Below, one piece after another: positions 2,266 to 14,747 of a DNA stretch of 64,000 bases. The notes beneath the pieces were generated by a model that worked only from the letters and a program-made list of their open reading frames with translations, was not told the DNA's origin and ran no database searches. The stretch is from the IMG/VR virus record IMGVR_UViG_3300025120_014869, positions 1 through 64,000 of that record. One strand, written 5' to 3'. Source of the DNA: a virus. The position numbers were made by a program, and so were the translations under genes. How positions within the stretch are numbered: position 1 is the stretch's first letter; the number at the start of each line of letters is the position of its first letter.

Positions 2266-2748
2266 ATGTTTGGACTTATTACAATGCTACTCACAACTCT
2301 CGGCGCAACGGGTATGGGTTCTATGCTTAAAATTGTTGGCGGTGTTTTCTCAGGGATGTCAGATGCTAAAGAGATGTCTGCAAGAAGAGAACTTATTAGG
2401 GATATGCAACTTAAAGGAGCTAATCTTGAATTTCAAAAAACGGTCTTTGGTGAAGTCAATGCAGATACTTCTGCTTTCACTAGGGGTACTCGCAGGCTCA
2501 TCGCTCTTATCGGGATGTGCAACTTCGCAGTTATTTCAATTCTCTGCACCCTCTACCCTGGAGTCGAACTCATCACTTTCACCCCACCAGAAAACAAAGA
2601 AGCAATTAAAATCCTCTGGGGACTCATCACCTTCCCAAGTGGAGCAGATATTACCACGGCAATTACAACAGGACACATTTCTCTTGTATCAATCGCCACT
2701 CTGGGCGCGATAGTTGGATTTTACTTCACACCTGGTGGTAAGAGATAA
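2266..2748 (+). CDS. Small membrane protein, holin-like (3-TM) candidate
   Basis: 160 aa with hydrophobic stretches at about residues 2-30, 78-100 and 133-153 and a charged middle (SARRELIRDMQLKG). The layout, including the RGTRRLIALIGM segment before the second membrane helix, resembles three-helix holin-like proteins found in phages and gene-transfer agents; this is weak homology by eye. Base composition is clearly GC-richer than its neighbours, which may mean recent acquisition. Ends back-to-back with the cyclase gene on the other strand (TAA then TTA). Could instead be a structural membrane protein. Confidence 0.5.
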   Translation: MFGLITMLLTTLGATGMGSMLKIVGGVFSGMSDAKEMSARRELIRDMQLKGANLEFQKTVFGEVNADTSAFTRGTRRLIALIGMCNFAVISILCTLYPGVELITFTPPENKEAIKILWGLITFPSGADITTAITTGHISLVSIATLGAIVGFYFTPGGKR

Positions 2749-4797
2749 TTACTTGCTTGTAGCTCTGTAAACCTTATCCCAATCTTCACCTGGATCATTA
2801 TCTTTTAATTCCATAACTCTTTCTCTCATTACGTTATAATAAAAGTCAATAGGAGATTTTTTTAATAATATTTCATCTAATAAGATAATAGCTTTCATCC
2901 AATCTCTATTCTTATAATGCTTAAGAAATGATTCATGTTTTATATAATTAAAAGGTTCATCTAATACGGTATATATTTGTATACCTTCTTTCTTTCCTTT
3001 AACAGCTATTTTATCTAATTCTATAAATTTAAACTTATCTTCAATGTGTCTTATAGTTTCTCTACCTAATAATATTTTTACCCCATAAGATTTAGTTTGA
3101 CCTTCCAATCTAGCAGCTAAATTAACTCCATCTCCTAAACATGTATAATCGAATCTTTGATCAGATCCCATGTTACCTACAACAACATTACCAGTATTAA
3201 TACCTATACCAATTGCAAGTTCCTTTTTACCTTCTTTTTTAAGTTCCTCATTTAGTTCATCTAATTTTTTAAACATCTCTAAGGAAGTTTCAATAGATCT
3301 AACTCTATGTGAAATTCTATCACCTTCAATAGGTGCGTTCCAGAAAGCCATTAAAGCATCTCCTATATATTTGTCAATTGTCCCGCCAGATTCCATAACT
3401 AAATACGTCATCGGGGTAAGATATCTGTTAATCAGATTGGTTAAATCTTGTGGATTATCTTTAAATTGTTCACTAATTGTGGTAAATCCTCTTATATCTG
3501 AAAATAATATTGAAAGTTCCTGTGTTTCTCCGCCTAATTTAAGCATTTCTGGATTTTTTTGTAGCTTTTTAACTATTTCAGGAGCTAAATAGTGTTCAAA
3601 TTGTTTTTTAATCTGCATTTTTCCTTTATATTCATGGATAAATCTTAAGAATATAGCAATTGTAAATACTATAAATGAACTATACACTGGGTAGGTAAAA
3701 TCTATCAATAAATTATGTTTAATAAAGAGATCAAAGCCTAAAATAGGTAAAGATAACACTACTAAACTTATAAGTACCCCATTTACCACCCATAGAAAGT
3801 TAAGAGCACATAGCGTTAACAATAAACTAAGAGCTAACGTAAAAGCTATTTCATATAACGTAGATTCAACAGGTCTTATTAACGCATTATCATGTGCTAA
3901 AGTTTCAATTACTTGCATATTAAGCTCATGACCATTGCTAATTGATATAGGAGTTGCTACTGAGTTAGATAAACCTTCTGCAGTTAAAGCTATAACGGTA
4001 ATTCTATTTTCAACACTTGACCAATCATCACTTACAACTGAAATTTTATCAAATTTTGTATCAAAATTAATCCAAATACGTGCATTTTCATCAGTCTTGT
4101 ATGTACCTGCATTTTTTAAACGTATAGCGTTAACACCAGCATGGTCTGTTTTAACTTGATATGATTCATCCCCAACTAATACTCTTAAAACTTCAAGAGG
4201 TAAAGTAGGATAAACTTCTCCTTTAACTTGTATCATTAAAGGCATACGTCTAACTACACCATCTAACTCTGGAGCTGTAACAGTCATACCTACTCCTTTA
4301 GCAAATAAACGTACATCTTCGATAGGACCAATACCATTAGGATAATCATATAACCAATCTGTTAATTCTACTGAACCTATAGCAGTTATTTTTTGCGATA
4401 CTAACTCACCCTTACCTTGTATTGACGCTGACTGTGCAGTAACTACTGGTAAAGCAAATAAAGTTGTTCTAAAAGTATCATCTCCTCCTAGTCTATCTTC
4501 TTCAGCAAATAAAATTGGTACCACAACAAGAGCTGCTCCATTCATATAAGCTTTTTCAATATAACTTGATAAAATATCTCGTTTCCAAGGCCATTGCCCA
4601 TGTTTTTCAAGACTTGCTTCATCTAATTCTACTATAGTAAATAATTCAGACTGTCTAATATTTTGAGTTTTTTGATAATAGTCTAAACCTTTCAGTCTTA
4701 AAATTTCTACTGGGTATGGATCATATATTCTTAATGCTGAAAACAATACTGCAACTAATGCACAGTATAAGAAAGGTTTAAATTTGTTAAGTTTCAT
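2749..4797 (-). CDS. CHASE2-domain class III adenylate/guanylate cyclase
   Basis: 682 aa. Order: N-terminal membrane helix (about 8-24), an extracytoplasmic CHASE2 sensor domain (about 30-300), three membrane helices (about 310-385), and a class III nucleotide cyclase domain (about 400-620). Catalytic signatures are intact: FSDIRGFT with D434, KYIGDALMAFW with D480 as metal ligands, and TCLGDGVNLAARLE. It should make cAMP (or cGMP) at the inner membrane in response to an envelope signal. It overlaps the FecR-domain gene by 4 bp; FecR-CHASE2-cyclase pairs are known in bacteria. Very unusual in a phage. Regulatory target unknown. Confidence 0.9.
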   Translation of the reverse strand: MKLNKFKPFLYCALVAVLFSALRIYDPYPVEILRLKGLDYYQKTQNIRQSELFTIVELDEASLEKHGQWPWKRDILSSYIEKAYMNGAALVVVPILFAEEDRLGGDDTFRTTLFALPVVTAQSASIQGKGELVSQKITAIGSVELTDWLYDYPNGIGPIEDVRLFAKGVGMTVTAPELDGVVRRMPLMIQVKGEVYPTLPLEVLRVLVGDESYQVKTDHAGVNAIRLKNAGTYKTDENARIWINFDTKFDKISVVSDDWSSVENRITVIALTAEGLSNSVATPISISNGHELNMQVIETLAHDNALIRPVESTLYEIAFTLALSLLLTLCALNFLWVVNGVLISLVVLSLPILGFDLFIKHNLLIDFTYPVYSSFIVFTIAIFLRFIHEYKGKMQIKKQFEHYLAPEIVKKLQKNPEMLKLGGETQELSILFSDIRGFTTISEQFKDNPQDLTNLINRYLTPMTYLVMESGGTIDKYIGDALMAFWNAPIEGDRISHRVRSIETSLEMFKKLDELNEELKKEGKKELAIGIGINTGNVVVGNMGSDQRFDYTCLGDGVNLAARLEGQTKSYGVKILLGRETIRHIEDKFKFIELDKIAVKGKKEGIQIYTVLDEPFNYIKHESFLKHYKNRDWMKAIILLDEILLKKSPIDFYYNVMRERVMELKDNDPGEDWDKVYRATSK

Positions 4798-5921
4798 TGT
4801 TGATTAATATTTATAATTACTTGTCCACCGTTGTTATGATCGCCAGATATAAACGTACCTTGATTTTCATAATTAACTGAAACAGATGAAGTTGGGTCAA
4901 AAGATATACTAACTTTATTTTGATTTTCTTCAGCTATAAAATATATTCTATTATCTATTTCAGTAAAGATTGATTTTGCTTCTTGTTCAGATACTATTAT
5001 TTTTTCAAAAGCAATTATTTCTTGTTCTCTTTCGATTAATTCTTCCTCGTTTATACCTTCTTCAACATCAGTTTGATCCTCTTCTGGTTCGGGTTCTGGC
5101 TCAGGCTCTGCTTCTGGTTCAGCTTCTTTTTTATCACCATCTTCTTTTTTATCATTATTATCTTCCTTTGAATCATCACCTTCATCTTCTTCTGCCTCTT
5201 CTTCAGCTTCTTCATCCGCTTCTTTATCTTCCTTTTCTTTTTGTTCTTGCTTTTTAAATTTAGATATATTTGTACGAGATAGAACAACTGGAGGAGTAGG
5301 TGGTGAAATCATACTTGTAACAACTGTATTTTCAAATGGTATAGTTAAAAGTACACTACCAGATATATTACTAACTTCAATTTTACCTGTATATTCATTA
5401 CCAAAACTATCTAAAGAAGGTAGTAAAGTAAATGAACTTTTACCGGATTCTGATACAGTTATATTGAAATCAGTACCTCTAACTGAAACTGAAGCAGTTG
5501 GTGTACTTATTTTTATATTTTCTTTATTAGCTATTAAACCTGACGTATATCTAATATTACCTAATGATGCTTTTAAATTTAATTTACCTTTTTTTGTATT
5601 AGGTTCATATACGAAATCATCAATTACTAATTCACTATATTCTTTTATTTTTACTTTCGTGTTATCTTCAAACACTAAATGAACGACGCCATTGAGTGTC
5701 TCAATAACGTCGTCCATATTTATTAAAGTACCTTTTTCAGTTAATATTTTATCATTACTTCTTATAATTTGTGCTGGTTGTGATTGGTAACTTACTTTAC
5801 CAACTGAACCAAAACAAACATTAACTATTAAAAAATTAAGGGTTAGTACCGTTACCCAAGTATATAACTGAGTTACTTGGATTAAGCGGTGGTGAAATAT
5901 CTGCTGTATTATAGAATCCAT
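4794..5921 (-). CDS. FecR-domain envelope protein with acidic linker
   Basis: 375 aa. A hydrophobic segment (about residues 22-38) is followed by a FecR-type beta domain (about 45-190; includes GTLINMDDVIETLNG and STPTASVSVRGTDF, a hallmark of FecR-like proteins), then a long Glu/Lys/Asp/Pro low-complexity linker (about 215-290) and a beta-rich tail. The upstream gene is overlapped by 86 bp because no ATG, GTG or TTG exists in frame between 5921 and the hydrophobic segment, so the start is uncertain. It likely works with the cyclase directly downstream, as in bacterial FecR/CHASE2 pairs. Confidence 0.75.
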   Translation of the reverse strand: MDSIIQQIFHHRLIQVTQLYTWVTVLTLNFLIVNVCFGSVGKVSYQSQPAQIIRSNDKILTEKGTLINMDDVIETLNGVVHLVFEDNTKVKIKEYSELVIDDFVYEPNTKKGKLNLKASLGNIRYTSGLIANKENIKISTPTASVSVRGTDFNITVSESGKSSFTLLPSLDSFGNEYTGKIEVSNISGSVLLTIPFENTVVTSMISPPTPPVVLSRTNISKFKKQEQKEKEDKEADEEAEEEAEEDEGDDSKEDNNDKKEDGDKKEAEPEAEPEPEPEPEEDQTDVEEGINEEELIEREQEIIAFEKIIVSEQEAKSIFTEIDNRIYFIAEENQNKVSISFDPTSSVSVNYENQGTFISGDHNNGGQVIININQQ

Positions 5922-6582
5922 CTGATTGAATTATTGCGAATGAAGTATCACTACCAACGTGCGTTAATTCAAGAACTTGTGAATTAAGACCAGCTTGGTG
6001 TATATCTAATTGATTATTACTACCAGCAATATCAACTATTTGTGTATGTCCTATACCTCCAGGATTACCTTCTTGTACTGATGCTACACTATTAAAACCA
6101 CCAAAAACATTATAGTCGATTTTAGAAAATGATGTATCATTTAAACTAAAATCAATTTGATTATTTGTGCCGTATACATTTAAATCAAAATCTTGATTAT
6201 TAATTAAAGCTGTATTACCATCTATATAACCTTCAATTTTAAGTAAATTACTATCACCTACTACAGCAATATCTAAATCATTTTTATCACCATTAAAGTA
6301 AATATCGAAAGCATTATTGTTACCTTCAGTATATATGTCAACTAATGTTTCATCTCCTTCAGAGTCCCAAATAATACTATTTGTATTACCTAATTGTATG
6401 ATAGTAAAGATGTTACTATCACCGTTAATATATGCAAAATTATCTCCCGAGCCGATAGAATTGTCATCTCCTATTTGTGTTATATCATAGGTACCAGTGT
6501 TACCTACTTGATCAATGTAAATTTCATTATCTGCATAGAGTAATGAACTGAATAATAATGTAAGAAGTGTAATGTATTTCAT
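5836..6582 (-). CDS. Curlin-repeat (CsgA/CsgB-like) secreted protein
   Basis: 248 aa from ATG 6582, chosen because it begins a signal peptide (MKYITLLTLLFSSLLYA) and has a late promoter 5 nt upstream; a TTG further up is not needed. The mature part is built of about ten degenerate repeats of roughly 20 residues with alternating hydrophobics and G-x-x-N turns, e.g. IDQVGNTGTYDITQIGDDNS, as in curli subunits. It is Asn/Asp/Gly-rich and nearly free of Lys. It is the plausible substrate of the adjacent CsgG/CsgF secretion genes. Amyloid formation is inferred, not shown. Confidence 0.8.
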   Translation of the reverse strand: MKYITLLTLLFSSLLYADNEIYIDQVGNTGTYDITQIGDDNSIGSGDNFAYINGDSNIFTIIQLGNTNSIIWDSEGDETLVDIYTEGNNNAFDIYFNGDKNDLDIAVVGDSNLLKIEGYIDGNTALINNQDFDLNVYGTNNQIDFSLNDTSFSKIDYNVFGGFNSVASVQEGNPGGIGHTQIVDIAGSNNQLDIHQAGLNSQVLELTHVGSDTSFAIIQSDGFYNTADISPPLNPSNSVIYLGNGTNP

Positions 6583-6595
6583 ATAATTATTTATC
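6583..6595 (-). promoter_or_regulatory. Late promoter of the curlin-like gene
   Basis: GATAAATA (6595-6588), 5 nt, ATG 6582; lies over the 3' end of csgG. Confidence 0.6.
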
Positions 6596-7459
6596 AATTT
6601 TTATAAGATAATTGTCATTATCTAAAAGATTTACATCATTACTAACTTTATGGTTCTTATCTTCATCTAACTCCCATATACCTTTTTCATCTCCTTTATG
6701 AATTAAATCTATTATAGCTGCGGCTATAGCACATCTTACTGCTATAGAATTACGTTCATTATTAGTTACACCAAATTCTCCTTCCATTAATTCAGGTTCA
6801 GTATCTAAATCAATATACTTAAAATATGTATTAGCTGATCCTATGCTTAATATAGTTTTTGATACAGTAGATGATAATAATACTTCACCTGTTTGAGAAC
6901 TAACCATACGAAGAGAAATAGTTACTACATCTTTTCTGTATTGTTTGCCAGCTCCTACTCCTTTAAAGAACAATCCTACCCCACCAGTAACATAATTACT
7001 TTCAAAAGATATTATACCACCTTCTACTATTAAACCTGCATATAACATTGGTTGTATATCAGGAAGATTTTTATCATCAAAACTTTGTCTTGTATTTTTT
7101 ATTAAATTTCTTTCAGTTAAAACGTTTTGTAAACCCTCTCTTTCTAAAACTTTAAACCATTCACCATTTCCAGCATTTAATAATTCTTCTACCAACCACG
7201 CATAACCTCCTTGTGTTACTGATGACGAAAAACTTGCAAAAGCATCTCCTTCTTTTCGTTGTCCTGTAAGATCTTTGAATGAATACGGTGCTACAAAAAC
7301 GTGACCTTTTTTAAGTTTAGGATATTCATAATTTTGCCATATAAATTTATTATTTTCAATTGAATATCTTTTTATATTATCATTTTGTGGTAAGTTTCTG
7401 ACTGGCATTGTAGCACAACCAGAAAAGAATATAATAGATAAAAGTAATAAAATTTTCAT
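6587..7459 (-). CDS. csgG: CsgG-like curli secretion channel lipoprotein
   Basis: 290 aa. N-terminal lipoprotein signal MKILLLLSIIFFSGCATMP with a lipobox ending at C15. The body follows E. coli CsgG closely: VAPYSFKDLTGQRK, WFKVLEREGLQNVLTERNLI, LIVEGGIISFESNYVTGGVG, SSQTGEVLLSSTVSKTILS and the late acidic LMEGEFGVTNNE. CsgG forms a nonameric outer-membrane pore for curlin export. It lies 1 nt after csgF and just before the curlin-repeat gene. Near full length compared with E. coli (277 aa). Recognition is strong. Confidence 0.93.
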   Translation of the reverse strand: MKILLLLSIIFFSGCATMPVRNLPQNDNIKRYSIENNKFIWQNYEYPKLKKGHVFVAPYSFKDLTGQRKEGDAFASFSSSVTQGGYAWLVEELLNAGNGEWFKVLEREGLQNVLTERNLIKNTRQSFDDKNLPDIQPMLYAGLIVEGGIISFESNYVTGGVGLFFKGVGAGKQYRKDVVTISLRMVSSQTGEVLLSSTVSKTILSIGSANTYFKYIDLDTEPELMEGEFGVTNNERNSIAVRCAIAAAIIDLIHKGDEKGIWELDEDKNHKVSNDVNLLDNDNYLIKIDK

Positions 7460-7460
7460 A

Positions 7461-7904
7461 TTATGGTGTGGGTATATATAATGAACCTACAGGTATTGTA
7501 ATTGTTGTCATACCCCCTGTTAAAGTATCGTAAACGTCTAAAATAATATTATCTGAATTTTGGGTCCAAGTAATAGTACTATCCTCTAAAGTAAATGAAC
7601 CGGTGGCTCCTGATTCTGAAAATAATTGCTCTGTAATAGATTTAGTTAATTCTGAATAAATTCTAGATTGTAAATTTGTCATAAAAACATTTACTGGCTC
7701 TCTAGATTCTGCTAATGTTAACTGTAATGCTAATGCTTCTGCCTCTTCAACTAAATTTGTTTTTCTAGTGAAAGATATATTTTCAATATTTAAAATATGG
7801 CTTGAATAGCCTATACCATTAAATGTTGGAGATTTAAATTGAAATTTTAATTCACTTGATATCAATGCTATAGGTAAAATTAAAAAAAGAAATATCTTTT
7901 TCAT
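7461..7904 (-). CDS. csgF: CsgF-like curli assembly protein
   Basis: 147 aa. Signal peptide MKKIFLFLILPIALISS followed by ELKFQFKSPTFNGIGYSSHILN, corresponding to the mature CsgF start (TMTFQFRNPNFGG), the part that inserts in the CsgG pore. The rest (TNLQSRIYSELTKSITEQ) matches CsgF FTQAIQSQILGGL. CsgF sits at the CsgG exit and couples export to nucleation. Immediately upstream of csgG with its own late promoter. Confidence 0.88.
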   Translation of the reverse strand: MKKIFLFLILPIALISSELKFQFKSPTFNGIGYSSHILNIENISFTRKTNLVEEAEALALQLTLAESREPVNVFMTNLQSRIYSELTKSITEQLFSESGATGSFTLEDSTITWTQNSDNIILDVYDTLTGGMTTITIPVGSLYIPTP

Positions 7905-7921: not shown

Positions 7922-8230
7922 CTATTTAATTTTTTTCAATAGCTCTTCTTCTTTACGCTTATATTCATTTTCAAGAATTTCTCTTCTTTCTTTCTCTTGT
8001 AAAATCATTTTAAGTTTAATGTTAAGACGTATCATATCATTATCTAACATTCTAACTTTATCTATTAAACCAATAAGAGTTTTTTTAGATTGACTGATAG
8101 TTGGAGAGACATCTTTAGTTACCCATTGCCAAACGTAAAATACAAAATAACCTAAACCAATAGCAGCAATTATTGGAAATCCAAAATCATTAACTATTTT
8201 AGCAAAGTGATCTATTGTTGCATCATTCAT
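7922..8230 (-). CDS. Small membrane-anchored coiled-coil protein
   Basis: 102 aa. One membrane helix (about 18-36, FPIIAAIGLGYFVFYVWQW), then a charged helical tail with heptad-like spacing ending in EYKRKEEELLKKIK. Similar in layout to the 93-aa protein just upstream (both begin with a GFPI-A membrane start), so they may be diverged paralogs or partners. Small phage proteins of this shape include BhlA-type holin-like proteins; no specific function can be claimed. Confidence 0.65.
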   Translation of the reverse strand: MNDATIDHFAKIVNDFGFPIIAAIGLGYFVFYVWQWVTKDVSPTISQSKKTLIGLIDKVRMLDNDMIRLNIKLKMILQEKERREILENEYKRKEEELLKKIK

Positions 8231-8232
8231 AA

Positions 8233-8514
8233 TTAATCCTTTCTTGCATCTTCTTTACCTTCTGAAGCTGCTATTCTATCTAAATTTGGCTCAACATTAA
8301 ATGCATGTGATATAAGCGTATCAATTTTTACTATCTCGTTAGTCATTACATCTACTCTATTCTGTAAACTACCTATCATACCTCCAAGACCTGCTACCGA
8401 ACCTTTAACCCCTTCCAATATAAATTTAAGAATAATAAAAATAAACAACCCACCAATTAATGCCCCTGCAATTGGAAAACCTACTTCGGTCATAAATCTA
8501 ATAAAACTACTCAT
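8233..8514 (-). CDS. Small membrane protein, possible paralog/partner
   Basis: 93 aa. Membrane helix at about 13-33 (FPIAGALIGGLFIFIILKFIL), then a helical segment (IGSLQNRVDVMTNEIVKIDTLI) and a charged tail. First gene of the csg-associated minus-strand run, with its own late promoter; 2 nt gap to the next gene. Function unknown. Confidence 0.65.
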   Translation of the reverse strand: MSSFIRFMTEVGFPIAGALIGGLFIFIILKFILEGVKGSVAGLGGMIGSLQNRVDVMTNEIVKIDTLISHAFNVEPNLDRIAASEGKEDARKD

Positions 8515-9872: not shown

Positions 9873-10610
9873 TTATACTTTTAATGCCATATCCCAGATG
9901 ACTAATTGTAAACGTGGGCTGAATTTTAAACTATGCTTTTTACACATATCAGCTACCATAGATGATTTTGCTGTATGTTCTTCTCTACTACCAGCACAAG
10001 GCATTAACCAAACGTTTTCTCTATTACATATACCGTTATCAATATATTTTTCAAATAATTCTTTCTCATCATCTTCACTATTAATAACAAATTTAAAACA
10101 TTCACCTCTTTTATTATGATGAGCTATAACATCAGGTTTATATCTTCTCTTCTCTGGATCACCATTATTACTCATTTTAGGAGATAAAGTAAATGTAGCA
10201 TTATATTCAGTATACCATTCTTCTTTAGGCATAATAGTACTATTAGATTCAAAATCAATACGAGGTTTAAATCCAAACCTTTCTACAAAAGTTTCTAACC
10301 ATTCAAGTAATCTTTTTTGTTGTAATAAAGGTTCACCACCAGTTATTTTTAATATAGCACCTCTTTTTAATTCTTCATCAAACCCATTATTTGCATAAAA
10401 ATTATTAAGTTCATCAAATGTATATCGATTTTTAACTGACCATGATACAAATGAATCGCAACCATGAGGTGAGTCCGGAGAGGCAAAACCTTGACACGTT
10501 AAATTACACATTGCCATTCTCATAAAAACAGATGGCCAACCGATATATTTACCTTCACCTTCTACGGTATAAAATACATGATCGTCACTTAAAGATAAAA
10601 CATTATTCAT
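9873..10610 (-). CDS. queE: 7-carboxy-7-deazaguanine synthase QueE (radical SAM)
   Basis: 245 aa. Converts carboxy-tetrahydropterin to 7-carboxy-7-deazaguanine. Cluster-binding region FMRMAMCNLTCQGF then C51 gives C35, C39, C51, an expanded spacing compared with the usual CxxxCxxC but like phage QueE forms. SAM-binding GGEP at 91-94 in KITGGEPLL, and substrate region DFESN. Belongs with FolE2, QueD and the QueC-like gene in this window. Confidence 0.88.
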   Translation of the reverse strand: MNNVLSLSDDHVFYTVEGEGKYIGWPSVFMRMAMCNLTCQGFASPDSPHGCDSFVSWSVKNRYTFDELNNFYANNGFDEELKRGAILKITGGEPLLQQKRLLEWLETFVERFGFKPRIDFESNSTIMPKEEWYTEYNATFTLSPKMSNNGDPEKRRYKPDVIAHHNKRGECFKFVINSEDDEKELFEKYIDNGICNRENVWLMPCAGSREEHTAKSSMVADMCKKHSLKFSPRLQLVIWDMALKV

Positions 10611-10710
10611 AACTTAATTATAATATAGTTCCTTATTAATATCAACATTTAGTATTATATTTATTGTTTTTTATAATTTTTTTCCACGTTAATTCTAACT
10701 ATTCTTTTTA

Positions 10711-10724
10711 TATAAATATTATTA
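10711..10724 (+). promoter_or_regulatory. Late promoter of phoH
   Basis: Exact TATAAATA (10711-10718), 6 nt, ATG 10725. Confidence 0.65.
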
Positions 10725-11468
10725 ATGACAGTTAAAAAACGTTCTGCACGTCGGGTAAATGAGAAGGAAATTCTTGATTTACATAACATATCAAAAGATG
10801 ATTGGGAATTAGATTTCCATATTAAAAAACCATTTAAGCTGAATAATTTACAGCAAGAATTTTTTGATACTATTATTAATGATCAAACTCAAATGTCGTT
10901 TGTTGATGGTCCAGCTGGTAGCGCTAAAACTTATATAGGTGTATTAGCTGCTCTCAGACTTCTAAGTGAAAGAAAGATAAAAAATATAGTATACATTAGA
11001 TCAATAGTTGAAAGTGCTAATCGTTCTATGGGTGCTCTCCCTGGAGAAATAGAAGAAAAATTTAAACCATGGTCAGCTCCGTTAATAGATAAATTAGAAG
11101 AAATAATTGATCCGGGAGCTCAATCTACGTTAATGTCTAAAGGTTATATAAAATGTATACCTGTTAATTTTACTAGAGGTTTAACGTTTAGAGAAAGTGT
11201 TGTTATAGTAGATGAAGCTCAAAATATGACTAAAGATGAATTAACTACAGTACTTACTAGATTCGGTGAAGGTAGTAAATATATTATAGTAGGAGATTCT
11301 TTGCAAAGTGATATTAACGGTAAGTCAGGGTTTAATAAAATACAAGAAGTATTTGATTCTGATGAATGTAGAGAAAACGGTATATTTGCTTATAAATTTA
11401 CCGATGATGATGTTGTAAGAAGTAAAATTTTAAAATATATTGTTGCTAGATTAGCCCATATCTCTTAA
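10725..11468 (+). CDS. phoH: PhoH-like ATPase
   Basis: 247 aa. Walker A GPAGSAKT (62-69), Walker B VVIVDEAQNM, and the PhoH core (FTRGLTFRESVVIVDEAQ, SKYIIVGDSLQSD). PhoH proteins are P-loop ATPases related to superfamily I helicases; the role in phages is unclear, though often discussed with phosphate stress. A late promoter, not a pho box, precedes it. Convergent 18-bp overlap with the 84-aa gene. Confidence 0.9.
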   Translation: MTVKKRSARRVNEKEILDLHNISKDDWELDFHIKKPFKLNNLQQEFFDTIINDQTQMSFVDGPAGSAKTYIGVLAALRLLSERKIKNIVYIRSIVESANRSMGALPGEIEEKFKPWSAPLIDKLEEIIDPGAQSTLMSKGYIKCIPVNFTRGLTFRESVVIVDEAQNMTKDELTTVLTRFGEGSKYIIVGDSLQSDINGKSGFNKIQEVFDSDECRENGIFAYKFTDDDVVRSKILKYIVARLAHIS

Positions 11469-11705
11469 TTCTCTAAGAGCATCTTCAAAGCTAATAGGTC
11501 TTACTTCAGGACCTTTATCAACTTGTTGTACTTCTTCTTTTGGTAGTTCATTATATAATAATTCTGCCATCTGTTGAGTTACATCATTTTCTAATTTTAC
11601 TAACTTTGGATCTCTTTCACGGGAAACAGGCATACCACTAGATATACCTGTTTGAATTATAGGTGATTTATTTATATTATTTTGATATACATCTTCTAAC
11701 CCCAT
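11451..11705 (-). CDS. Hypothetical 84-aa protein
   Basis: 84 aa, acidic, no membrane segment. It overlaps the end of queD by 10 bp (translationally coupled) and the end of phoH by 18 bp on the other strand. C-terminus FEDALRELRDMG is helical. Not recognised. Confidence 0.55.
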   Translation of the reverse strand: MGLEDVYQNNINKSPIIQTGISSGMPVSRERDPKLVKLENDVTQQMAELLYNELPKEEVQQVDKGPEVRPISFEDALRELRDMG

Positions 11706-12373
11706 GATGTCCCTTCAAATGGATTACCCATACCTTTTGTTACTTTATTTTTTAAAGGAGAAGCATATTCTTTCTTTTCTTCAACAGGTGGTTGTACTGG
11801 CTCTTCTTCTTTATTTTCTAAATTTAACTCTTCTTGATTAGGATCTTTAGGATGGGTAGGTAATGTTTTTGCAATTTCAGGATCGACATTGTAATCTAAA
11901 CCTTCTCTAGGAATATAATGCGTTTTATAAACTTTAGCATCATTTTCATAGATGGCACTATTACCTTCATGCTCCCAAACTTCTACCTTAACAACTTCTA
12001 CTCTATCTTTTGTAGTAGATCTAACATAATTATTAACTGCACCGAATACCCATTCAGCAGTCTTTTCAATACCAACTGCTTCCATAATGCGTAAATCAAT
12101 CATAGCTTTACTATCTAAATCTTTAAATGTCTCTAACTCTGGATCATCTTCAGCAACGCAAGTTGTATGATCAAATTGTTTTTCTAATAATTTTTTAATC
12201 TCTTTACAACCACCGAAATCATATACCCAATTATTATCATCAAGTTCGTTTGTTGTAAACCATAACTTACATTGCAATCTATAACCATGTATTAATCTGC
12301 AATGACTCTGAGCCTTCCATTGACGAAAAGCTGTACTACCCATAGGAATTATTTTAGTTGATACGTATCTCAT
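11696..12373 (-). CDS. queD: QueD-like 6-carboxytetrahydropterin synthase with C-terminal extension
   Basis: 225 aa; the enzyme domain covers about 1-145 and the rest is a Pro/Glu/Lys-rich tail. Family marks: SHCRLIHGYRL (H24, C25, H29), VYDFGGCKEIKKLL, FDHTTCVAEDDPE, and VEVWEHEGNSAIY with the catalytic Glu. The usual HGHxY zinc pair reads HGYRL, so one zinc His is replaced by Y31. Makes the pterin precursor for QueE from dihydroneopterin triphosphate. TATAAT lies 9 nt before the ATG. Confidence 0.82.
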   Translation of the reverse strand: MRYVSTKIIPMGSTAFRQWKAQSHCRLIHGYRLQCKLWFTTNELDDNNWVYDFGGCKEIKKLLEKQFDHTTCVAEDDPELETFKDLDSKAMIDLRIMEAVGIEKTAEWVFGAVNNYVRSTTKDRVEVVKVEVWEHEGNSAIYENDAKVYKTHYIPREGLDYNVDPEIAKTLPTHPKDPNQEELNLENKEEEPVQPPVEEKKEYASPLKNKVTKGMGNPFEGTSWG

Positions 12374-12410
12374 ATCTAATTATAAGATATTTAATCCAAT
12401 AGTCAACTAG

Positions 12411-12444
12411 TTGGTGGGAAGAGGAACTCGCATATAATATAATA
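12411..12444 (+). promoter_or_regulatory. Orphan AGGAAC-class promoter, possible antisense RNA
   Basis: TTGGTG (12411-12416), 16 nt containing AGAGGAAC, TATAAT (12433-12438); GGAAC is 5 nt before the -10, as in the gp43 and gp32 promoters. No start codon follows on the plus strand; transcription would run antisense into the 404-aa gene. Confidence 0.4.
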
Positions 12445-12453
12445 AATTATATA

Positions 12454-13668
12454 TTAAGCTTGATCTGTAGTATCGTCTAAGTTTTGAGAAGTATATTTTG
12501 GTTTAACCTTTGCTTTCTTAATTTTACTAGCTAGAATCTTTTTAGCTTCATCACCTATTTCTTCAGTAGATTTTAATTTTCTTTTTGCTTCAGCTTTTTT
12601 TCTTTTAGGAGATTTTATTACTGGTTCTTTTTTTGATTCACCGTTATCTAATGGTAATTTTGTTTGCTTATCACTTAATTGTTTTATTGTAGCAAAATAA
12701 TCATCTATACTATCAATAACGAAATCTTTTCTTCTATCTAAAACAGTTTTAGGTAGTACTTTAAATAGTATATCTTCTGCAAATTTTCTTGCATCTTTTA
12801 ATTCAATATCTAAATCATTACTATCAATTTTACCGGCATTAATTTCATCAATACTATATTGACCTTCAATAGCTTGTTGCAAAGATGTTTTAGCTATAGC
12901 TTTTCCGAATATTTTATAGTAATTATTTTTAATATCAGTTTTAAGAACTTGAAAGCCAGCAGGGTTAAGATTTAATATTGCAAATCTCTTCAACGCTTCA
13001 GTATCATCGCCAGCAAAATATTCAATATTATCTTTAAAATCAGTATATATTCGATTATTACCAATTCTTTTTAAAAGAGTGGTTGATAAAAAATCAGGTA
13101 CTAAAGCTAGAACCTTATCTTTGGTTAATTTTTCTTCTTTTTCTTCCCCTGCTTTAGCTTTTTCTGCTTGTGTTATTTGTTGTTGTATTTTATTATGATA
13201 GTCTTTATCAGCATCTGATAGGTCATTAAACTTACCTTTCGCTCCCATATCAACAGCGTTTTTAAATCTACCATCTCGAGCATATACCTTCTTAAATTCT
13301 TCTGATGCATTTCTTAACATATTTTGAAGCATATCTTGAGCTTCTCCATCTGATAAATCTCCTTTTTGTAGCTTAGCAAATAACCTTGCATTTTCTAATT
13401 CAGCTTTTCTTGCAGCAGCTTCTGCAGATCTTGCTTCTGCAGATCTCATTTTAAAACCTCTTGTACCAGGTATAGATCTTGCAACAGCACCTATACCTTT
13501 ACCAATAGACCCTAATAAATTACTACTACCGGTAGATGGGCTTTTAGAAGTTACAACCTCATCAAGTTGTTTCTTAAAGTTACCGCTTTCATATATCTTT
13601 TGAATCTTTTGATTTTCAGTAATACCAAAAGCTTTTTCAACTTTCTCAAATAAATCTTTATCTTCCAT
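12454..13668 (-). CDS. Large basic late protein, unknown
   Basis: 404 aa. Long helical, Ala/Lys/Glu-rich (about 70-190), a middle folded part, and a Lys-rich tail (about 345-390, KSPKRKKAEAKRKLK). N-terminus MEDKDLFEKVEKAFGITE contains I-T-E but is less tag-like than others. No enzyme motif recognised. Late promoter 7 nt upstream. A head-internal or DNA-binding role fits composition and timing but is inference. Confidence 0.65.
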   Translation of the reverse strand: MEDKDLFEKVEKAFGITENQKIQKIYESGNFKKQLDEVVTSKSPSTGSSNLLGSIGKGIGAVARSIPGTRGFKMRSAEARSAEAAARKAELENARLFAKLQKGDLSDGEAQDMLQNMLRNASEEFKKVYARDGRFKNAVDMGAKGKFNDLSDADKDYHNKIQQQITQAEKAKAGEEKEEKLTKDKVLALVPDFLSTTLLKRIGNNRIYTDFKDNIEYFAGDDTEALKRFAILNLNPAGFQVLKTDIKNNYYKIFGKAIAKTSLQQAIEGQYSIDEINAGKIDSNDLDIELKDARKFAEDILFKVLPKTVLDRRKDFVIDSIDDYFATIKQLSDKQTKLPLDNGESKKEPVIKSPKRKKAEAKRKLKSTEEIGDEAKKILASKIKKAKVKPKYTSQNLDDTTDQA

Positions 13669-13683
13669 ATTGAAATATTTAAT
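13669..13683 (-). promoter_or_regulatory. Late promoter of the 404-aa gene
   Basis: ATTAAATA (13683-13676), 7 nt, ATG 13668; overlaps the -35 region of the folE2 promoter. Confidence 0.5.
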
Positions 13684-13703
13684 CTATATGCTATAATAGT
13701 TAT
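13670..13703 (+). promoter_or_regulatory. Early promoter of folE2
   Basis: TTGAAA (13670-13675), 16 nt, TATAAT (13692-13697), 6 nt, ATG 13704. Confidence 0.7.
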
Positions 13704-14747
13704 ATGTCAGATAAAGTAAATAGTTATGAATGGTTAGGTGAAGACGATGAGCTCACCGGAGAAAAAGATATTATTGCAAAAGAAATAATGGGAGAAGAAT
13801 ATAGTAAGAGTTACTTCCCTCCTATTAGAGTATATGATAATAACGTAAAAGCAGATAAGAAGTATATTTCTTCATTACCTGATTTGCAGAATGGTCCTTC
13901 TAGTTTAATTCAAGGAGCTCCAGTACCTATCCAACAAGTAGGTATACATAATTTTAAATTACCTTTAACTTATAAAAAGAGAGATGGTAAAACTATTGAG
14001 TTAGAGACTAGCGTTACTGGCAGCGTTAGTCTCGAGGCTCATAAGAAAGGTATTAATATGTCTCGTATTATGAGAAGCTTTTATGATCATAAAGATGAGA
14101 CGTTTAGTATTAATAAGATTAAAGATGTATTAGAAACATATAAAAATAATCTTAAGAGTTTTGATTCACGTATTATGCTTAAGATATCTTATCCGATTAA
14201 GCAGAAGAGTTTACGTAGCGGTTTAGAAGGTTTTCAGTATTATGATGTAGTATTTGAAGGTGATCTTACTAAAGATGGAGAGTTTAAAAAGTATATTCAT
14301 TTCGATTTTGTATATTCATCTGCATGTCCTTGTAGTTTTGAATTAAGTGAGCATGCTGAAAAATATCGTAACCGTGCTACTGTACCTCATAGTCAACGTA
14401 GTGTTGCAAGAGTAAGTGTACGTTTTGATGATATGTTATGGGTAGAAGATCTTCAGGAGTTATGTCTTGCAGCTTTACAGACTGAAACGCAAGTTATGGT
14501 TAAGAGAGAAGATGAGCAAGCATTTGCTGAAATGAATGGTTCATTTTTAAAATTCGTAGAAGATGCAGTAAGATTATTATATGAAAAATTAGCTAATGAA
14601 TCTCGTATTAAAGATTTTAAGATTGTAGCTTCTCATAATGAAAGTCTTCATAGTCATAATGCAGTATCAGTTATCGTTAAAGGTGTAGAAGGAGGCTTCT
14701 CAGCAGGTGTTGCTAGAGATGTATTTGAAACTACTGGACTTAGATAA
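13704..14747 (+). CDS. folE2: GTP cyclohydrolase IB (FolE2)
   Basis: 347 aa, slightly longer than usual (about 260-300) through a 60-residue N-terminal region. Family marks: PVPIQQVGIHNFKLPL, SLEAHKKGINMSRIMR, SSACPCSFELSEH with the metal Cys, and PHSQRS. Converts GTP to dihydroneopterin triphosphate, the shared first step of folate and 7-deazaguanine synthesis. With QueD, QueE and QueC-like it gives the phage the whole route. No partner in its immediate operon besides small ORFs. Confidence 0.93.
   Translation: MSDKVNSYEWLGEDDELTGEKDIIAKEIMGEEYSKSYFPPIRVYDNNVKADKKYISSLPDLQNGPSSLIQGAPVPIQQVGIHNFKLPLTYKKRDGKTIELETSVTGSVSLEAHKKGINMSRIMRSFYDHKDETFSINKIKDVLETYKNNLKSFDSRIMLKISYPIKQKSLRSGLEGFQYYDVVFEGDLTKDGEFKKYIHFDFVYSSACPCSFELSEHAEKYRNRATVPHSQRSVARVSVRFDDMLWVEDLQELCLAALQTETQVMVKREDEQAFAEMNGSFLKFVEDAVRLLYEKLANESRIKDFKIVASHNESLHSHNAVSVIVKGVEGGFSAGVARDVFETTGLR

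Follow-up and report, generated by a model that had tools for sequence, protein, structure and literature searches.

The window, i.e. the complete 64,000-nucleotide stretch of DNA analysed here, is part of a 78,260-bp IMG/VR virus entry for a marine-type phage, whose T4-type polymerase, helicase, terminase and tail sheath, recognized with PHROGs, bear out an earlier, sequence-only reading of this DNA as a viral genome. That reading had singled out the interval 2749-5921 for a CHASE2 nucleotide cyclase with an intact active site; the same interval also holds a gene for a FecR-domain protein (4794-5921), which it did not name. Both genes belong to a minus-strand operon with the order two small ORFs (93 and 102 aa), CsgF, CsgG, a curlin-repeat protein, FecR and cyclase, in which the FecR stop and the cyclase start overlap by 4 nt. 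The features of the operon are as follows:

2749..4797, minus strand: predicted CHASE2 class III adenylate cyclase, 682 aa (Pfam CHASE2 and Guanylate_cyc)
3820..4743, minus strand: CHASE2 sensor domain of the cyclase, residues 19-326 (PF05226, E 1.9e-31)
2968..3525, minus strand: catalytic domain of the cyclase, residues 425-610 (PF00211, Guanylate_cyc, E 1.6e-24)
4794..5921, minus strand: FecR-domain periplasmic protein, 375 aa (PF04773, E 2.1e-10)
5319..5801, minus strand: FecR beta domain, residues 41-201 (AlphaFold2, mostly pLDDT > 90)
4800..4973, minus strand: FecR C-terminal beta region, residues 317-374, with a curlin-like IxIxQ strand at its end
5836..6597, minus strand: CsgA/B-like curlin-repeat protein, 253 aa (IxIxQxG repeats at residues 26, 37, 64 and 197)
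6587..7459, minus strand: CsgG outer-membrane pore (PF03783, E 2e-46)
7461..7904, minus strand: CsgF (PF10614, E 1.3e-15)
7922..8230, minus strand: small protein with one hydrophobic segment and a charged tail (PHROG 18771), a paralogue of the 8233..8514 ORF
8233..8514, minus strand: small protein with one hydrophobic segment and a charged tail (PHROG 18771)

Convergent with the cyclase lies a gene for a holin-like 160-aa protein with two hydrophobic segments (window 2266-2748), whose place is kept in two related loci (L002 and L003). A tRNA call at 2550-2644 is an artefact, being a 'Stop' with anticodon tta inside an ORF. Further along the window (9873-14747) there is a probable 7-deazaguanine cluster with a QueE-like radical SAM enzyme (PHROG 2076), QueD/PTPS and FolE2, which suggests modification of DNA or tRNA bases.

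Architecture and active site of the cyclase

The cyclase is far beyond a chance ORF, having relatives at 64 viral loci with identities of 32-82%. In its AlphaFold2 (AF2) model (mean pLDDT 87.6) an N-terminal helix leads into a sensor of mixed alpha/beta structure, after which come three helices and the cyclase fold. The helices span residues 3-25, 312-333, 336-361 and 368-400, and the hydrophobic segments agree with the layout of CHASE2 receptors. By both Pfam and AF2, the protein thus has the form of such a receptor, with the CHASE2 domain flanked by the N-terminal helix and C-terminal membrane helices, and the full sensor and membrane parts previously ascribed to it are indeed in place. In Foldseek searches the cyclase domain matches those of Pseudomonas aeruginosa CyaB (TMt 0.89) and Spirulina CyaC (0.85-0.87).

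The residue table likewise agrees with the sequence-only reading: the metal Asps D434, within FSDIRGF, and D480, within DKYIGD, are present along with the TCLGDGVNLAARLE motif at residues 552-565. The purine-binding residues were checked for loss and are kept, namely Lys476 and Thr552, which form the adenylate pair of class IIIb enzymes, as are the transition-state residues Asn559 and Arg563. By the residue table and an alignment with 3r5g, the protein combines the fold, the two metal Asps, the adenine-selecting Lys/Thr and the Asn/Arg of class III adenylate cyclases. In all 47 full-length phage cyclases D434, K476, G479, D480, G555, D556, R563 and E565 are invariant, position 552 is T, S or D, and N559 is replaced by S in a Melnitz-like group of seven, whose activity may differ. 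Adenylyl cyclases predominate among the best solved relatives, and one of them, P. aeruginosa CyaB, has the identical Lys and Thr, which makes ATP the predicted substrate and cAMP the predicted product; the guanylyl cyclase Cya2 (2w01) is also among the best solved matches. In comparison with L002 (82% identity), the gene as a whole has a dN/dS of 0.10, CHASE2 one of 0.07 (0.068) and the catalytic domain one of 0.11 (0.113); the C-terminal tail, at 0.34, is looser and is absent from HTVC008M. By these computations the active site is intact and the gene is under selection.

The FecR partner and the curli operon

In its AF2 model the FecR protein starts with a signal-type helix, followed by the beta domain (41-201), which a disordered acidic linker (about 216-315) joins to the C-terminal beta region; the confidence at the short curlin-like tail is only about 78. 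The beta domain retrieves the CSS domain of PupR (6ovk, E 2.2e-4) and the anchoring domain of the adhesin MpAFP (5ix9, TMt 0.73) in Foldseek searches, and the phage FecR profile gives a weak match (E 0.049) to the latter by sequence. Together, PF04773 and PupR identify it as having the fold of FecR periplasmic signalling domains. FecR regulators of iron uptake are characterized by a cytoplasmic anti-sigma part and a partner ECF sigma factor; the N-terminus of the phage protein consists only of the signal-type helix. Its IxIxQ ending is found in 41 of 43 phage FecR proteins; of 383 other phage ORFs only 16 have it, and of the 22 FecR proteins near bacterial CHASE2 cyclases none, though these counts describe the family and are no test of a prior hypothesis, as the pattern was written after viewing the alignment. 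The terminal Q374 is invariant in 28 of 28 aligned homologues. This ending suggests that the curlin-like tail ties phage FecR, as a periplasmic sensor, to the fibre or the pore. FecR has been treated as an iron-dependent regulator (PMC9599517); the present analysis gave no support for iron sensing by phage FecR.

The 253-aa curlin-repeat protein has no Pfam match and is syntenic with CsgA/B in other pelagiphages. CsgF, CsgG, CsgA/B, FecR and adenylate cyclase (AC) occur here in the conserved order of the pelagiphage curli (T8SS) module. The scan that yielded the 64 viral loci was queried with the cyclase alone; CsgG, CsgF and FecR are present in all 43 loci with >5 kb upstream (HTVC008M and Melnitz counted in), and all but one of the 55 testable loci (54) have FecR upstream of the cyclase, 23 of them with the 4-nt overlap. 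As these loci were picked by the cyclase only, the linkage to curli genes is no selection effect. The two small ORFs upstream of csgF (7922-8514) show no histidine-kinase domain in Pfam, the one at 8233-8514 having no Pfam match at all, and in related phages they are sometimes located elsewhere and on the opposite strand. A T4-type late promoter octamer directly precedes csgF as well as the cyclase; with 15 occurrences in the window versus 28 expected, however, it is rarer than chance, and we set it aside as evidence.

Candidate receptors, origin and proposed role

One explanation for the cyclase is host reprogramming, in which cAMP acts on a CRP-family protein or another cNMP receptor of the host. 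In its favor, cNMP-binding (PF00027) proteins occur in 74 of 96 genomes sampled from alphaproteobacteria, whereas they occur in just 4 of 79 SAR11-family genomes, which in this sample are partly incomplete. The SAR11 genomes were recognized with the SAR11-441R 16S probe, and the PF00027 proteins of their family include an FNR-like protein and large multi-domain proteins. Class III cyclases above the cut-off were found in two SAR11 bins only, in both cases on phage contigs. The cultured relative HTVC008M has its host in the SAR11 family; as host markers for the present record neither the terminase (best match Sinorhizobium phage phiM9, 40%) nor the superoxide dismutase (best 46%, with no clear SAR11 affinity) is decisive. 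If the host is a SAR11 bacterium, the scarcity of cNMP-binding proteins and the location of the cyclase hits on phage contigs make a CRP route unlikely, and the control of the host once proposed for this enzyme would lack a known cAMP receptor. We regard host reprogramming as unlikely.

Alternatively, the cyclase might govern how curli or late genes of the phage itself are transcribed, a role that the sequence-only reading had also entertained for the curli-like genes and that would fit its place in one operon with them. This explanation is weakened by profile searches, in which no PF00027 protein, and hence no CRP-like DNA-binding protein, was found in the 78-kb source record, complete HTVC008M or Melnitz. 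Weak PF00027 matches downstream of the cyclase in two loci (L043, L051) are better read as cupins. A candidate receptor is encoded on contigs, one of them 297 kb long, in the clade sister to the window's cyclase (SH-aLRT 96). It has 218 aa, and its canonical phosphate-binding cassette (GVFLGEGALVS..PRNAS) precedes a C-terminal hydrophobic segment:

L175, 1396-2052: predicted 218-aa cNMP-binding protein
L173, 1187-1843: predicted 218-aa cNMP-binding protein
L191, 10001-10657: predicted 218-aa cNMP-binding protein

In all six records that cover both places the gene for this protein shares the strand of the cyclase and lies 12.8-15.2 kb downstream of it, but these records form one clade, some being near-identical, and therefore amount to few independent events. 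The contigs are fragments, and the other nine records with the protein end before the cyclase, one of them at its nearest expected place. As the protein has no helix-turn-helix match, it is more likely to be a membrane effector than a transcription factor. Its hydrophobic C-terminus, too, argues against transcriptional control of the phage's own genes, which we hold to be quite unlikely. In the 297-kb contig an insert of about 0.8 kb (L028 9777-10562) splits the cyclase gene close to its C-terminal end; it holds an ORF that is homing-endonuclease-like by eye, and an intron or a frame break are both possible.

A third explanation, that the cyclase is a counter-defence or decoy against cyclic-nucleotide defence such as Pycsar, draws on the match of PADLOC PycC profiles to the catalytic domain (E 7e-29) and of Pycsar effector profiles to the sister-clade receptor (E about 1e-8). 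However, these matches are accounted for by the shared cyclase and cNMP-binding folds, the source record has no PF00027 protein to serve as an adjacent cNMP effector, and the linkage with curli secretion genes is left unexplained, making this role very unlikely.

The proposed comparison with SAR11 and other bacterial homologues was made in a tree of the phage proteins and 75 bacterial sequences, mostly alphaproteobacterial, with a best full-length identity of 36%. The phage cyclases form one well supported group, deeply apart from the bacterial ones, with only two SAR11-bin sequences mixed in (G424, L200 and G460, L201), and these come from phage contigs that carry the operon from the curli genes through FecR to the cyclase in full. 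A third SAR11 match (G479) is sub-threshold and located on an 8-kb contig with response-regulator genes. Bacterial cyclase homologues are often near FecR genes, the FecR domains there being on large surface-type or barrel-like proteins. None of the flanks of 80 bacterial CHASE2-cyclase loci contain CsgG or CsgF, and CsgF is absent from 34 of the 36 genomes behind such loci and present in 6 of 385 alphaproteobacterial genomes; conversely, neither FecR nor a cyclase was seen at the seven alphaproteobacterial curli loci examined. FecR and AC are also reported to be absent from bacterial T8SS operons (PMC9599517). As bacterial cyclase and curli loci keep the parts separate, the union of curli with FecR and cyclase is so far phage-only. 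A functionless passenger from an alphaproteobacterial operon, for which one could cite the mainly alphaproteobacterial cellular relatives, as in published trees (PMC9599517), is highly improbable given the dN/dS of 0.10, the active site invariant in divergent phages and the deep separation of the phage clade.

Computation establishes the operon linkage, the FecR tail, the scarcity of receptor domains in SAR11 and the receptor of the sister phages. With these in view, we tentatively favor an explanation in which a working class IIIb cyclase, with its CHASE2 sensor and FecR partner in the curli operon, reports the assembly state of the envelope, fibre or pore, and cAMP goes to a phage effector. 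The FecR domain would stay folded in the periplasm, while the curlin-like strand at the end of the long disordered linker docks onto either the CsgGF pore or the curli-like fibre. What state these are in would then pass from FecR to CHASE2 and alter the cAMP output. Against this explanation counts the lack of a PF00027 protein in the 78-kb source record and in complete HTVC008M and Melnitz. The target of cAMP would be a phage-encoded effector instead of host CRP, the candidate in the sister phages being the membrane-anchored cNMP-binding protein. We infer the contact between FecR and CHASE2 purely from the pairing of their genes, and the sensing of the fibre, like an effector in the present phage, is presumed. 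A more elaborate version, which we consider doubtful, is a phage-owned cAMP circuit in which the curlin-tailed FecR senses assembly of the fibre or pore, the CHASE2 cyclase signals it and the membrane cNMP effector could time lysis or a membrane change.

Comparison with known systems

The pelagiphage curli (T8SS) module with FecR and adenylate cyclase was published in 2022 (PMC9599517), with related descriptions for pelagimyophages (PMC7029224) and Melnitz (PMC9004378), and the HTVC008M gene is annotated as an adenylate/guanylyl cyclase. Thus, while the intact, periplasm-facing cyclase beside curli-like genes stands (43 of 43 loci), the novelty once claimed for it does not. The 2022 paper is silent on CHASE2, CRP, cNMP and jumbo phages (PMC9599517), and in our search of the open-access literature neither a phage cyclase paired with a cNMP receptor nor a fibre-tethered FecR partner nor the phage cNMP receptor of the sister phages was found described. 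Synthesis of second messengers by phages has seldom been tested, and the function of the pelagiphage curli genes is an open question in the published work. If these phages infect SAR11, the scarce receptors suggest that phage proteins, or something yet unrecognized, are the intended recipients of the signal.

The modules of HTVC008M and Melnitz have the same order, CsgF-CsgG-CsgA/B-FecR-AC, with cyclases 37-39% identical to that of the window; unlike in those phages, the window's cyclase belongs to another subclade and FecR abuts it with no second CsgA in between. The gene upstream of the module has been called a histidine kinase and is reported as always present in the podovirus set (PMC9599517), though it is no requirement for the module in myoviruses; the two small ORFs at this position here show no kinase domain in Pfam. 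With the class IIIb enzymes P. aeruginosa CyaB and Spirulina CyaC the phage cyclase has in common the catalytic fold, the metal Asps and the Lys/Thr pair, but it differs in having a CHASE2 sensor and being encoded by a phage gene. A FecR protein beside a CHASE2 receptor is likewise seen in bacteria, in the Burkholderia BiofilmReg operon with its pair of FecR and a CHASE2 histidine kinase (PMC5192318) and with alphaproteobacterial cyclases; in contrast to the phage FecR, the bacterial partners lack the curlin-like tail (0 of 22) and their loci lack CsgG and CsgF (80 loci). The gene module itself is already known, and to it the present analysis adds the scarcity of receptors in SAR11, the curlin-like tail of FecR and the sister-clade cNMP-binding protein, the last two of which make the question of the role of phage curli experimentally specific.
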